Source: Anaeromyces robustus
Lineage: Eukaryota > Neocallimastigomycota > Neocallimastigomycetes > Neocallimastigales > Neocallimastigaceae
Assembly: GCA_002104895.1 (NCBI GenBank)
Contig: MCFG01000049.1
Location: forward strand, 20,001-67,500
DNA length: 47,500 bases
Direction: 5' to 3'
Shown: in pieces, positions 11,594-25,574 of the stretch
Position numbering within the stretch: position 1 is the stretch's first letter
How the letters are laid out: the number at the start of each line of letters is the position of its first letter
Notes under the pieces: model-generated
Databases searched by the model: none
Told to the model about the DNA's origin: nothing
Seen by the model: the letters and a program-made list of their open reading frames with translations, nothing else
Program-made: the position numbers and the translations under genes

Positions 11594-12034
11594 TCAGATT
11601 ATTTTTTCCATTTTTACATGAGGAATATCGTCCTCCAAGAATGGTTCAGATACTACTTTAAATCCTTCTCTTTCATAAAATCCAATGGCATATGTTTGGG
11701 CTTCTAGATATATTTTTTTTGCATGAAGCTGTTGAATTGCAACTTCTACTCTTTTATGTAATATTTTTCCACCTAAACCTTTACCATGTTCTAAAGTAAC
11801 AACTCGTCCAATTTGTGCAACTTTATTCTCTGAATCACGCATAAATACACGTAAATATGATGATATTCTATCTTTTTCATTCCAATTAAATATATGAATT
11901 GATTGATAATCTAAACCATCTATATCCATGTATGGACAATTTTGTTCTACAACAAAAATTTCTTGTCTTATTTTTAGTAATTCATAAAGTTCTTTATTTG
12001 TTAATTCATCAAACTTTTTTATTATTAAATCCAT
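11594..12034 (-). CDS. ElaA-family GNAT N-acetyltransferase
   Basis: A 146-residue single-domain GNAT protein, about the length of bacterial ElaA (roughly 150). The N-terminal signature FVVEQNCPYMDIDGLD (from about residue 27) is diagnostic for the ElaA family. Residues 70-95 hold the acetyl-CoA loop GRVVTLEHGKGLGGK, and the C-terminus has the FYEREGF and IPHVKM blocks of the fold. It should transfer an acetyl group from acetyl-CoA to an amine; the natural substrate is not known. There is no intron, unlike Nup107, which is transcribed away from it 488 bp upstream. Intronless structure and bacterial-type family suggest transfer from a gut bacterium (inference). The ATG at 12032-12034 is the natural start and aligns with ElaA N-termini. 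Confidence 0.9.
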   Translation of the reverse strand: MDLIIKKFDELTNKELYELLKIRQEIFVVEQNCPYMDIDGLDYQSIHIFNWNEKDRISSYLRVFMRDSENKVAQIGRVVTLEHGKGLGGKILHKRVEVAIQQLHAKKIYLEAQTYAIGFYEREGFKVVSEPFLEDDIPHVKMEKII

Positions 12035-12521
12035 TATAAAATTTTTGATAATTTTCTTTATAAAAATAGGTAAATGATAAAAAAAAAAAAAAATACTAAT
12101 AAGTATTTATGATAAGGGTTAAATACAAAAATAAAAAAAAAAAATTTTTTAATTTTTGTAGATTTCATTTTTTTATGAATATATTAGTAGTAATATATAT
12201 TTCAATAGTAATTAGTAGTTTTAAGGAATAATAGCAAATTGAATAATTATATTTAGGTTAGGTTATGGAATTTAGTATTGTATATTAAATTTTTTTAAAT
12301 TATATGTAATAATTTTTTATTTTTTTCTTTTCTTTTTTTTTTTTGTTCCAAAAAATAATAATAATAAAAAAGTAATTATATTTTTAAAAGAATATAAAAA
12401 ATAATCATAATATATAAATATAATTTTTTTTTTATTTATATATAAATATATATATATATTTATTTGCAAGTGATATTAATTTATTTATAAAATTTAATCA
12501 TTATATTAAATAATATCTTAG
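12035..12521. promoter_or_regulatory. Shared upstream region of divergent acetyltransferase and Nup107 genes
   Basis: 487 bp of A/T-rich DNA between two outward-facing starts. It must contain both promoters unless there are further upstream exons. The one less A/T-rich patch is a TTTAGGTTAGGTTATGG sequence near 12252-12268 containing a tandem AGGTT. No known factor site can be named. Confidence 0.5.
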
Positions 12522-21981: not shown

Positions 21982-23211
21982 ACATTTTTAATAATTATAT
22001 ATATTATTTATTTCCAATTTCAAAAAATTCTCTTTGAAAGAATTGCTGTAATACATCCAAATAAACGAAAAGTTTTTTAATCGAAGAAAAGAAATTTTTT
22101 TAAACAATAATATTTGTAAAAAATGTTTTTTTCTTTAATAATTAAAATATTTGTACTATTTATTATACTTATGTATCATTTAATATTTATATCAATTAAA
22201 TACTTTTACAAGTAGAATACATTTATATATATATATTAATTGTTCAGATTAAATAAATACTAATAATTATTATTTAATTAATTAAGTATTTATCACTTTT
22301 ATAATTCATAAAACGTAACAAATAATATATACAAATATTAAACTTTGTAAGAAAAAAAAATTATAAGATAATAATTATTATGAAAATCATTTGATAATCA
22401 TGTAATTTTTTTTTTTATTTAATTATTGTATTCTTAAATAAATAGATATAATGACTCTTTCTTATGTTTAATTATAGTACAATAATTATTTTTAAATATT
22501 ATGTTACTATGATAATAGTATTACAATTCTTTTTAAATATTATGTTTCCATAATTGATTTGGTATAATAGCTTTTTATTCTTTATGAAATCTATAATGAA
22601 AATATTTAAAAAGATTTTTCTGTAATTAATATACAATTTTTTAAGTTATATTAAAATATAGAATTATTTATGATTAATGGGAAAAAGTTAATTTTTTAAA
22701 AAGTATTATTCTATGAATGATTAAAATTTCAAAATTATTCTAGTTCTATTGTAAAATATTTTGTAAATGATATTTATATTATTAAAGTTATTTCTTGTAT
22801 TTGTTATATAATCATTCTATTATTAAATTATTTAACATATAAAATTATTAGTGAAAAAAATAACGTATATATAAGAAAAATCTATGGGGGTTTATTTTAT
22901 AGATATTTGAATACAGTCCATGATATAAGGAAAACCAGACCCTAATATTAATATATAGATTGTTTTATATTAATTAAAAAAATTTTTTTTTATATAACCT
23001 ATTTAATTTTTTTTTTCTTTTATATTATTATTTATTATTTTATTTTATTTTATTTTTAATTTTATTTTATTTTTTATTTTTATTTATTTTTATCTTTATT
23101 TTTATTTTTATTTTATTTTACTTTACTTTATTTTATATTTTATTATATTTTTATATAGTTCAATATATATCTTATCTTACTATTTATTTTATTTTATTTT
23201 GTTTTATTATT
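21333..23211. other. Intergenic region upstream of Tom70
   Basis: It starts with a polypyrimidine tract (21333-21389, almost all T with a few C) directly before the Tom70 ATG, probably part of its promoter or leader. An (AAAT)n run lies at about 21948-21981, and T-rich TTTTA repeats occur at about 23030-23140. A slightly G/C-richer patch at about 22885-22945 could hold a decayed or extra exon of the dockerin-repeat gene but shows no clear motif. Confidence 0.55.
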
Positions 23212-23991
23212 TCACTTTATTCTTAAATTATTACTTACAAAATCAAATAAAAATAGAAAATATGGATATGATCTGTCACCAATTGTATCTTTTTTACATA
23301 TATACATATCTATGAGACAAGTCTATTATTATATAATTAAAAAAACCATAAATATTAATTAACAAGAAAATATATTTATTATATATAATTAATTGATATA
23401 ATTAATTACTTTATTATTTTCATTTCCCCAAGAATGACTTGGCTCTTCATTTACAATATTACATCCTTTACATATTGTGTAATTTTTTGATATAGGATCT
23501 ATAATACAAGTCTATTAATATAATATATATATTTTCATCATTTCATTAAAATTAATTAATTTTATACAATTTTTTTTTGTTTGTTTTATAGTTTTATTCT
23601 ATAATTTATTCGCTTTCTTACATACTTTATCATTTTCTATTCCATACGATGTTCCCATGCTTTCATATGAAACTGTATATCCAAGACAATATCCCAAATC
23701 CATTATATTTTTACATTTATTTTTATCAATTATACAAGACTATATTTAAATATAATTAATAAATATTATATCCAACTGATAAAATACATTATTTAGTATA
23801 TATAATTATTCATAATTATTTTTTACTTGTTCATTTTCCCATCCAAATTTAACATCTTTATCATATGACCCTTCTCCTGTAATTTTACAAGTTTTACATA
23901 CTGGAAAGTCTGATAAATCACATTTAATCTTGGGTATTATAAATATTATTATAAATAATAGTATTAAATTCACTTTTTTAATTTTTTCCAT
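23212..23991 (-). CDS. Small secreted protein of degenerate fungal-dockerin (CBM10-like) repeats
   Basis: Exons in transcript order: 23827-23991, 23626-23739, 23410-23511, 23212-23322; introns of 87, 114 and 87 bp, all phase 0, giving about 163 residues. The start encodes a signal peptide (VNLILLFIIIFIIPKIKC, about residues 7-24). Repeats follow the fungal dockerin pattern: C-x2-C, a spacer, then W/G-x-E-N-x2-(W)C-x-I. The three copies end GWENEQ|SCIID, GIENDK|TCIID and GNENNK|TCLID, where | is an intron, with CKTC and CKGC in copies 1 and 3. Typical gut-fungal dockerins end WGVQNGQWCGI, so the penultimate Trp is replaced by Ser or Thr. No catalytic domain is present. The end is uncertain: exon 4 keeps a TCLID start but reads into hydrophobic sequence and has a strong GTAAGT at about 23231-23236, so further exons could follow. 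It could be an intact extracellular adaptor or a decaying dockerin gene. Confidence 0.7.
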
Positions 23992-24779
23992 TAATTCTTT
24001 TTTTAAATACGATACTTTTAAGATACTTTTAAGATAATTTATATATAAAAAAAGGTTTTTTATTTTTTATTTTTAAATATATTTATTTTTATTTAACATT
24101 TATTTTATAAGAAATTTATATTGGCACTTTATATGTCCATTTTAATAGTTTTTTTTTTTTTTTTTTTTTTCCTTTTTTCCTTTTTTCCTTTTTTCTTTTT
24201 TTTTTCTTTTTTCTATATTTTCTTTTTTTTTATTTAATTTTTAAGAAAGATTTTACTTTTAAATATCTCTTATTATTATTTTCTTTTATTTTTTTCTATA
24301 TTTTTTCTCTTCTTTTTCTTTTCTTTTTTTTAAAATTTTTAAGAAAGGTTTAAATTTTAAATTTCTTTTAATATTATTTTTTTATTATGGAAAAATTGAA
24401 ACAATAGTAGGAATTTAATATTATGTTTTATTGTATATATTTATTAAATTAATTTGGTTTAGAATATTATTTATCATGATATAAAATAATATATATATAA
24501 ATTTTTGTATTATTTTGTAATTTATATAAATATAAAGTTTTGTGTTTTTTTTTTTTAATAAAAAAAAATAAAATAAAATTAATTTAATAGTTATTATAAT
24601 TATCAAATTTTAATATAAATTAAGTTTCCAATATAATTTATAATAACTAATAATAAATAATAGTAATAATAAATAATAATAATAATAAATGATAATAATT
24701 AAGTTACTAATAAAAAAATAAAATTAATATTAATAAAAATAAAATATAACATTTCAAAATAATATTAATATATTAAACA
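23992..24779. promoter_or_regulatory. Shared upstream region of dockerin-repeat and APH genes
   Basis: 788 bp between divergent starts. It contains T/C-rich tracts (about 24149-24235 and 24290-24330), including a CCTTTTTT repeat, and then (TAA)n-rich sequence close to the APH start. A 61-residue open frame at 24421-24606 is Ile/Lys-rich A/T translation and is not supported. Confidence 0.5.
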
Positions 24780-25574
24780 ATGAACAATATGAATAAACTT
24801 CCAGAAAATATAAAAAAATATATAGAACAAAAAGAATTTGAAAAAGACAATGTTGGACTTTCAAATAGTACAATCTATATTTATAATAATATGGTTTTAA
24901 AAATTGAAGATGATATATCTCAGACAGTAGAAACAGTTAATGTAATTAAATGGTTAAAAGGGAAATTACCTGTACCAAATATTATTTATCATGAAATATT
25001 TGAAAATAAAAGCTATCTATTAATGAGTAAAATTAATGGGAAAATGTCTTGTGATGATTATTATCTCGATAATTCTGAATTGTTATTAAAATTATTAGGA
25101 GAGGCATTTAATTTATTATGGAATATTAATATTAAAGATTGCCCAAGAATTAAAGATATCAATTCTAAACTTAAAGAAGCAAGAATAAGAGTTGAAAATC
25201 ATCTTATTGATTTAAAAGAATTTAATGATAATGTTGGTAATACTTTTAAAAATCCAGAAGAGCTTCTACTATGGCTTGAAGAAAATAAACCTGAAGATAA
25301 TGAACTAGTATTTTCACATGGTGATTTTTGCCTCCCAAATATTTTTTTAAAGGATGATAAAATAACAGGTTTTGTTGATCTTGGTGATAGTGGAATATGT
25401 GATAAATGGTATGATATTGCTTTATGTTACAAAAGCTTAAAAAATAATTTCAATGGAACTTTTGGAGGAAAAATATATCCTGATTTTAATCCAAATAAAT
25501 TATTTGATGTTTTAAATATTCAACCTGATTATAAAAGAATAAATTATTATCTTTTACTAGAAGAATTATTTTAA
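24780..25574 (+). CDS. APH(3')-type aminoglycoside phosphotransferase
   Basis: ATP-dependent small-molecule kinase of the APH family, closest by eye to bacterial APH(3')-III and the same length (264 residues). Visible features: MVLKIEDD with the ATP-anchoring Lys41; WLKGKLPVP; LLMSKINGK; the Brenner motif HGDFCLPNIF with catalytic Asp182 and metal-binding Asn187; FVDLGDSGICDKWYDIA with metal-binding Asp200; and the C-terminal LLLEELF, which closes the substrate pocket in APH(3'). In bacteria such enzymes phosphorylate the 3'-hydroxyl of kanamycin-like drugs. Here all key residues are present, so activity is plausible, but the substrate is unproven. It is intronless and ends at a normal TAA. 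Family identity points to transfer from a Gram-positive gut bacterium (inference); codon use has adapted fully to the A/T-rich host, so the transfer is not recent, unless the donor was A/T-rich. Confidence 0.93.
   Translation: MNNMNKLPENIKKYIEQKEFEKDNVGLSNSTIYIYNNMVLKIEDDISQTVETVNVIKWLKGKLPVPNIIYHEIFENKSYLLMSKINGKMSCDDYYLDNSELLLKLLGEAFNLLWNINIKDCPRIKDINSKLKEARIRVENHLIDLKEFNDNVGNTFKNPEELLLWLEENKPEDNELVFSHGDFCLPNIFLKDDKITGFVDLGDSGICDKWYDIALCYKSLKNNFNGTFGGKIYPDFNPNKLFDVLNIQPDYKRINYYLLLEELF

Follow-up and report, generated by a model that had tools for sequence, protein, structure and literature searches.

Gene structure at the locus

The window, the whole stretch of DNA analysed here, comprises 47,500 nucleotides (C434:20001-67500) of the Anaeromyces robustus genome (70.2 Mb, 769 contigs). 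A gene on its minus strand runs from an ATG at 23991 to a TGA at 23214-23212 and consists of four in-frame exons of 165, 114, 102, and 111 nt (the last including the stop codon), separated by three introns of 87, 114, and 87 bp that are all GT..TAG and all in phase 0. The four exons are richer in GC (0.22-0.26) than the three introns (0.08-0.13). The gene model is sound and yields the spliced product of 163 residues proposed in the initial annotation; its splicing in the living fungus is predicted from the sequence. The features of the gene and its possible 3' extension are as follows.

Exon 1: 23827..23991, minus strand; signal-peptide-like start MEKIKKVNLILLFIIIFIIPKIKC followed by the opening part of module 1 FPVCKTCKITGEGSYDKDVKFGWENEQ, from translation and splice sites
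Intron 1: 23740..23826, minus strand; 87 bp, phase 0, cuts module 1 before SCIID, a position common to genes on contigs C96 and C712
Exon 2: 23626..23739, minus strand; rest of module 1 (SCIIDKNKC) followed by the opening part of module 2 GYCLGYTVSYESMGTSYGIENDK
Intron 2: 23512..23625, minus strand; 114 bp, phase 0, cuts module 2 before TCIID
Exon 3: 23410..23511, minus strand; rest of module 2 (TCIID) followed by the opening part of module 3 YTICKGCNIVNEEPSHSWGNENNK
Intron 3: 23323..23409, minus strand; 87 bp, phase 0, cuts module 3 before TCLID
Exon 4 (if not spliced further): 23212..23322, minus strand; rest of module 3 (TCLIDMYIC), then a tail with the stop codon at 23214-23212
Possible intron 4: 22942..23238, minus strand; 297 bp, GTAAGT...ATTAG, GC 0.07, from a reading of the splice sites
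Possible exon 5: 22897..22941, minus strand; GLVFLISWTVFKYL and stop codon, a putative hydrophobic C-terminal tail, from an in-frame reading

The stretch LILLFIIIFIIP in exon 1 has a mean hydropathy of 3.5. At the other end of the gene, a straight read-through of exon 4 yields ...SYPYFLFLFDFVSNNLRIK, with the end of the frame at 23212. Alternatively, splicing from the consensus donor GTAAGT at 23238 to an in-frame acceptor whose last base is 22942 would produce ...SYPYFLFLFDF-GLVFLISWTVFKYL, making the protein 169 residues long with a hydrophobic end. Possible exon 5 is present as a single copy in the genome and has a GC content of 0.31 versus 0.07 in the adjoining possible intron 4; for comparison, of the window's 798 60-bp steps outside ORFs, 13 have a GC content of at least 0.30. 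The best 15-residue hydropathy mean at the C-terminus is 2.15 with this exon and 0.95 without it, and ranges from 1.75 to 3.2 in the four kin genes described below. The gene may end in an extra exon at 22941-22897 that encodes a hydrophobic tail. A transcript running on into a catalytic domain was also considered and rejected: possible exon 5 stops after 14 residues, and no minus-strand frame of at least 60 aa lies between 21405 and 23211.

Within the gene, the donor of intron 2, GTATGT, also codes for V-C in frame at the position of T-C, and the reading continues as V-C-K-K-A-N-K-L-stop. If intron 2 is left unspliced, the frame stops after ...YGIENDKVCKKANKL, and a product ending at this point of the read-through is possible.

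Two other genes of the window were recorded. The plus-strand frame at 24777-25574, a single open frame, belongs to the APH(3') aminoglycoside phosphotransferase family (NF033068, 225.1 bits, cut-off 205); this bacterial-type gene in a fungal genome was likely acquired by horizontal transfer. The minus-strand frame at 11594-12106 is a GNAT acetyltransferase frame similar to the bacterial PRK10314 (99.4 bits, below the cut-off of 171).

CBM_10 modules of the encoded protein

The spliced protein had initially been described as a secreted dockerin-repeat protein without a catalytic domain, comprising a signal peptide, three modules, and the start of a fourth. The suggested HMMER-type check against PF02013 (CBM_10) gave 37.5 bits (cut-off 23, E 3.4e-9), and since no other family reached its own cut-off in the Pfam scan, the protein indeed appears as one without a catalytic domain. 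A PDB search with the spliced protein (E up to 1) gave no match. Under both fungal module profiles, none of 2000 plain and none of 2000 Cys-preserving shuffles reached the score of any of the three modules. With the bacterial profile, modules 1 and 3 again exceeded all shuffles, and module 2 was reached by seven plain and two Cys-preserving shuffles of 2000. The homology of the modules to CBM_10 is far above chance.

The second half of each module follows the pattern [ST]C-x-I-D, with a last Cys added in modules 1 and 3, and all three introns are located just before this [ST]C, whose Cys is the third (core) Cys of the module (FGWENEQ^SCIIDKNKC, YGIENDK^TCIID, and WGNENNK^TCLIDMYIC, where ^ marks the intron). 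Because every intron precedes the [ST]C of its module, exon 4 contains the end of module 3 and a tail. Of the earlier description, the three modules and secretion from a signal-peptide-like start are supported, and the start of a fourth module is ruled out, as the last exon opens with the second half of module 3. The three junctions have a 26-nt repeat in common (88% and 73% identity to the reference copy), as expected from the tandem duplication of an intron-split exon. The modules adjoin one another, with no long linker between them.

As noted in the initial annotation, the Trp before the last Cys is replaced; the residues at this place are S, T, and T in modules 1, 2, and 3, respectively. 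The CC pair of dockerins is replaced by CxxC, a single C, and CxxC. Modules 1 and 3 have four Cys residues and module 2, as spliced in the model, has two of the four. At the places corresponding to residues 22 and 24 of bacterial CBM10, the three modules carry F/W, Y/I, and W/N, respectively, and the second Trp is kept in module 1 only.

Trp-less and canonical modules in the genome

A total of 683 PF02013 candidates were found in the genome, and all 150 candidates that were scored match the family, a mark of an anaerobic gut fungus. In canonical fungal dockerins, the first Trp of WGWE is kept and the second place is mostly V or I, and both the Trp before Cys (WCGI) and the CC pair after GY are present in each of the 12 aligned canonical modules. 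Trp35 and Asp23 are binding residues of the dockerin. By pattern count, Trp precedes the Cys in 327 of the 354 WGxENxxxC sites genome-wide. WGWEN sites behave differently, with Trp absent before the Cys in 13 of 14, the exception being on contig C561. The 14 sites are distributed over seven contigs, five of them in a gene cluster on C13, and because of this clustering the Fisher value of 1.5e-15 overstates their independence. Absence of the Trp characterizes a class of modules in this genome, and degeneration as its sole cause is ruled out as a statement about the class. Decay, which the initial annotation had offered to account for the divergence, is kept as a less likely reading of the window gene, above all for modules 2 and 3.

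The consensus of the Trp-less modules is near YPYCxxCxVTATGGDGSLWGWENxxSCxIDxxKC, and judged by sequence the class is clearly not canonical. According to Pfam, such modules are attached to GH5 (C107, C533, and C283) and GH45 (C13) cellulases; they were also seen, by sight, on a gene of C81. Both classes occur together in the C107 cellulase, with two modules each in a single chain, an arrangement suggesting that they may have different roles. When the C283 enzyme and two C13 enzymes were scanned, their Trp-less modules fell short of E 0.001 against PF02013. In the C13 cluster (C13:54.9-69.0k; L061, L063, and L047), the genes are of the GH45 type and combine Trp-less CBM_10-like modules with Asn-rich linkers; scanning of L061 and L047 confirmed GH45, with the modules below the E 0.001 limit for PF02013.

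Kin genes sharing the module-splitting intron

A loose intron scan covered 112 loci (33 of them bacterial) and the window. A phase-0 intron splitting a module before xC was found only in the window gene (three introns), in two genes of C96 (two and one), and in one gene of C712 (one). A genome-wide search with the acceptor-side [ST]C pattern returned at least seven places, namely six with [ST]C in the window, C96, and C712 genes and one non-coding place on C46; the count is a lower bound because the fixed-letter pattern missed C96:28-30k. Together with an intronless gene of C96, the two C96 genes and the C712 gene make up four Trp-less, non-catalytic kin, with no enzyme detected by sight or by Pfam.

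C96:12.2-15.3k: two splits (C96:12-15k), WGWESET^SCIIDLKKC and WGWEDNA^SCIIDNVKC
C96:22.5-25.5k: one open frame, intronless; 18.8 bits against the PF02013 cut-off of 23
C96:28.2-30.0k: one split (C96:28-30k), WGFEYDN^VCILSEEC, missed by a stricter first scan
C712:44.6-47.6k: one split, WGFENEK^SCIVDATKC

By eye, each of the four starts with a stretch like a signal peptide, and linkers lie between its modules. The last two modules are similar from gene to gene and are followed by a hydrophobic C-terminal end, before which no further intron occurs. The linkers are Ser/Thr- or Asn-rich in the C712 gene and two of the C96 genes. Three of the kin were scanned: two scored above the PF02013 cut-off, at 46.3 and 52.9 bits, and the third scored below it, at 18.8 bits; no other Pfam family was over its cut-off in any of them. 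The three C96 genes (C96:12.2-30.0k; L066, L067, and L112) are located on one strand within 18 kb.

The module-splitting intron is the best clue to the kinship of the window gene, which shares with the four genes a signal-peptide-like start, Trp-less CBM_10-like modules, and the lack of an enzyme, and with three of them the split intron. In contrast, the kin are longer and have linkers and a hydrophobic tail; in the window gene, three modules directly adjoin and the tail is uncertain. The combination of a signal peptide and a hydrophobic end suggests that the kin may carry a GPI anchor. The label of dockerin for the window protein was not upheld: none of its three modules has the Trp before Cys or the CC pair, and its nearest gene family by intron position is Trp-less and non-catalytic.

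Placement of the window modules by profiles and phylogeny

Module profiles were built from 88 canonical and 24 Trp-less modules, the latter being what was left of 27 modules without the Trp after omission of an L048 mis-hit and two L056 modules. The profiles separated the classes completely (88 of 88 canonical modules in five-fold validation, and 24 of 24 Trp-less modules with their own locus left out), a separation that is partly built in, since class membership had been assigned from the residue preceding the Cys. Module 1 scored 35.4 bits with the Trp-less profile versus 26.2 with the canonical one, module 2 gave a tie (18.2 versus 19.2), and module 3 scored 4.5 bits higher as a dockerin (25.0 versus 29.5). 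All three modules score lower than any of the 24 Trp-less ones (42.6-75.3) and lower than the canonical mean (63). By profile, membership of the Trp-less class is clear for module 1 alone, with module 2 undecided and module 3 closer to the dockerins.

The phylogenetic tree included 81 modules over 41 columns, with 40 of the 88 canonical modules, 12 of the 35 bacterial modules, and the structures 1E8R and 1E8P. For modules of 40 residues, 48 of the 78 inner branches were open and the bootstrap was unsettled, and only one strong split was used. The smallest strongly supported set (99/93) comprises the three window modules, 21 of the 24 Trp-less modules, and all 13 bacterial rows; on the other side of this branch are all 41 canonical rows and three of the 24 Trp-less rows. 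The branches leading to modules 2 and 3 are very long, with 2.66 and 1.59 changes per column. The Trp-less rows did not form one clade in the tree, which has five changes, and the starred branches force at least two; a single clade of the Trp-less rows and module 1 was not rejected (p-AU 0.565).

Comparison with dockerins, bacterial CBM10, and CBM_10-only proteins

The window protein resembles the fungal dockerin (PF02013; Piromyces equi Cel45A, 1E8P/2J4M) in its Pfam family, tandem copies, and secretion, but differs in lacking the Trp before Cys, the CC pair, and an enzyme or CotH partner. In the PDB, the canonical profile finds 2J4M and 1E8P and does not find 1E8R. The Trp-less profile used for this comparison (A1, built from nine Trp-less modules and module 1 of the window) did not find the fungal dockerins at E up to 10; its match to 1E8R is at chance level (14 bits, E 0.38, 16 residues aligned), second of six matches of which the other five are unrelated.

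The likeness to bacterial CBM10 (Cellvibrio XynA CBM10, 1E8R) consists of the YPxC motif, the WGWE..SC...C pattern, and the last Cys. On the other hand, the first Cys of the bacterial module (Cys5) and Tyr8 have no counterpart in the window modules (Tyr8 as aligned by eye), an extra Cys is present three places after YPxC in the four-Cys modules 1 and 3, and the score is weak. Among the bacterial modules, 30 of 35 prefer the Trp-less profile, by 3.5 bits on average only. In 18 tabulated bacterial CBM10 modules, the residue before the Cys is Ser in 17, Asn in one, and Trp in none, and the second aromatic place is Trp in seven and Tyr in 11. A link between the Trp-less class and bacterial CBM10 is no more than suggested.

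It is reported that Tyr8, Trp22, and Trp24 of the Cellvibrio CBM10 bind cellulose, Trp22 and Trp24 being the two Trp residues of WGWE (Ponyi 2000; PMC8121702, Table 1). Table 1 of the same paper contains CBM10 modules with YFW and YWN triads, and the CBM10 of CjAA10, a W/N form like WGNEN in module 3, still binds insoluble cellulose (PMC8121702). Specificities are described there as varying among bacterial CBM10 modules (PMC8121702). Cys5 and Cys38 of bacterial CBM10 form one disulphide, and a subgroup without both shows weak mannan binding (PMC4642672). By analogy, the two Cys residues missing from module 2 may correspond to one disulphide.

A dockerin repeat without an enzyme is not new, since two such cases exist. 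For celsome_120 of Piromyces finnis, Table 1 of PMC12421816 gives no modules other than CBM10. In the present genome, a 511-aa frame on C561 (L048:1177-2709) has a signal-peptide-like start, six CBM_10 stretches, and Thr-rich linkers; it has no other Pfam family, its modules are Trp-bearing, and it holds the sole WGWEN site with Trp before Cys. Both resemble the window protein in having CBM_10 modules and no listed catalytic domain; unlike it, they are regarded as dockerins, and the C561 modules carry the Trp before Cys. When proteins annotated as dockerin- or CBM-only were modelled, hidden esterase domains were reported in several (PMC12341934); the window protein has no room for such a domain. 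Two further loci were observed in this genome. The dockerin-like modules of a 423-aa frame on C423 (L056:1402-2670), several in number, are highly degenerate, and a Pfam scan to E 0.001 gave no further family there; L035 (C106:20.6-24.0k) encodes three canonical dockerins followed, by eye, by a serpin-like stretch.

Possible function of the window protein

The reading preferred here, with about even confidence, is that the window protein belongs to a non-catalytic surface family binding plant-wall polysaccharide and is a short, diverged representative of it. The three-module CBM_10 protein would be secreted via its signal peptide and perhaps held at or near the fungal surface by a hydrophobic, GPI-like C-terminal tail. 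It would then bind cellulose or mannan of the plant cell wall weakly and multivalently through its remaining aromatic face, which would be formed by F/W in module 1 and W in module 3; the anchoring, the ligand, and the binding mode are all predicted from sequence features. Weak multivalent binding to the plant wall is favoured because of the aromatic residues that are kept, the W/N form of CjAA10, and an expansin-like protein with CBM_10. This gut-fungal protein is reported to adsorb more strongly to lignocellulose than one without the module (PMC12632131); its module may be of either class. Several observations speak against plant-wall binding by a surface family member: module 3 leans to the dockerins and module 2 gives a tie, scores are low, branches are long, and the second Trp is kept in module 1 only; moreover, the likeness to bacterial CBM10 is weak, linkers of the kin type are missing, the tail depends on possible exon 5, and intron 2 can be read through.

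A decaying gene is a less probable explanation and is considered unlikely. The gene would have been a member of the Trp-less family that lost its linkers, its last modules, and its anchor, and is now drifting. The long branches of modules 2 and 3, the low scores against both module classes, and a protein with three modules only and no linkers would all be expected of such a gene, as would the two of four Cys residues in module 2 as modelled and the stop codon reached when intron 2 is unspliced. The gene nonetheless keeps four exons in frame, GT..AG sites, a start codon, and a signal-peptide-like start, and modules 1 and 3 keep all four Cys residues. The Cys pair missing from module 2 would fit a single disulphide, as in the bacterial subgroup (PMC4642672), with the fungal pairing assumed by that analogy.

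The dockerin-only protein of the initial annotation would cap or bridge the cohesins of scaffoldins, its diverged modules competing with or cross-linking the dockerins of enzymes. The match to PF02013 over the cut-off, the 4.5-bit preference of module 3 for the canonical profile, and the existence on C561 of a chain of six Trp-bearing CBM_10 stretches and nothing else are consistent with such a role. Against it, the Trp before Cys or the CC pair found in 12 of 12 canonical modules occurs in none of the three window modules, the intron ties the gene to Trp-less genes, and the tree sets the window modules apart from canonical dockerins, and docking is therefore regarded as improbable. A secreted module protein with another ligand, such as the fungus's own wall or the surface of a partner microbe, is very improbable: the varied specificities of bacterial CBM10 (PMC8121702) and the many dockerin genes of no assigned function reported to be upregulated with a methanogen in another gut fungus (PMC8665504) would allow it, but nothing direct in the sequence points to it.

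Two possible lineages of CBM_10 modules in gut fungi

A broader proposal is tentative and held with less than even confidence. In gut fungi, the CBM_10 fold may have diverged into two functionally distinct lineages: the true dockerins, with WGVEN..WC, and Trp-less binders of cellulose or mannan, the latter being partly counted as dockerins and partly missed by PF02013. The Trp-less lineage would include surface-anchored, non-catalytic fibre binders that spread by tandem duplication of intron-split exons, and the window gene would be a reduced member of it.

Gut-fungal dockerins have been tabulated by PF02013 matching (PMC12341934), and a table note states that "CBM10 is considered a dockerin in fungi" (PMC12421816). 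In a literature search of titles, abstract openings, and passages, mainly of the open literature, no paper was found that divides the CBM_10 modules of gut fungi into Trp-less and canonical ones, nor did passages of related papers contain a statement on a surface family with intron-split modules. If part of the PF02013 family indeed binds fibre and not scaffoldin, the parts lists of cellulosomes would be inflated, and the surface members would be candidates for gripping plant tissue or for holding complexes.
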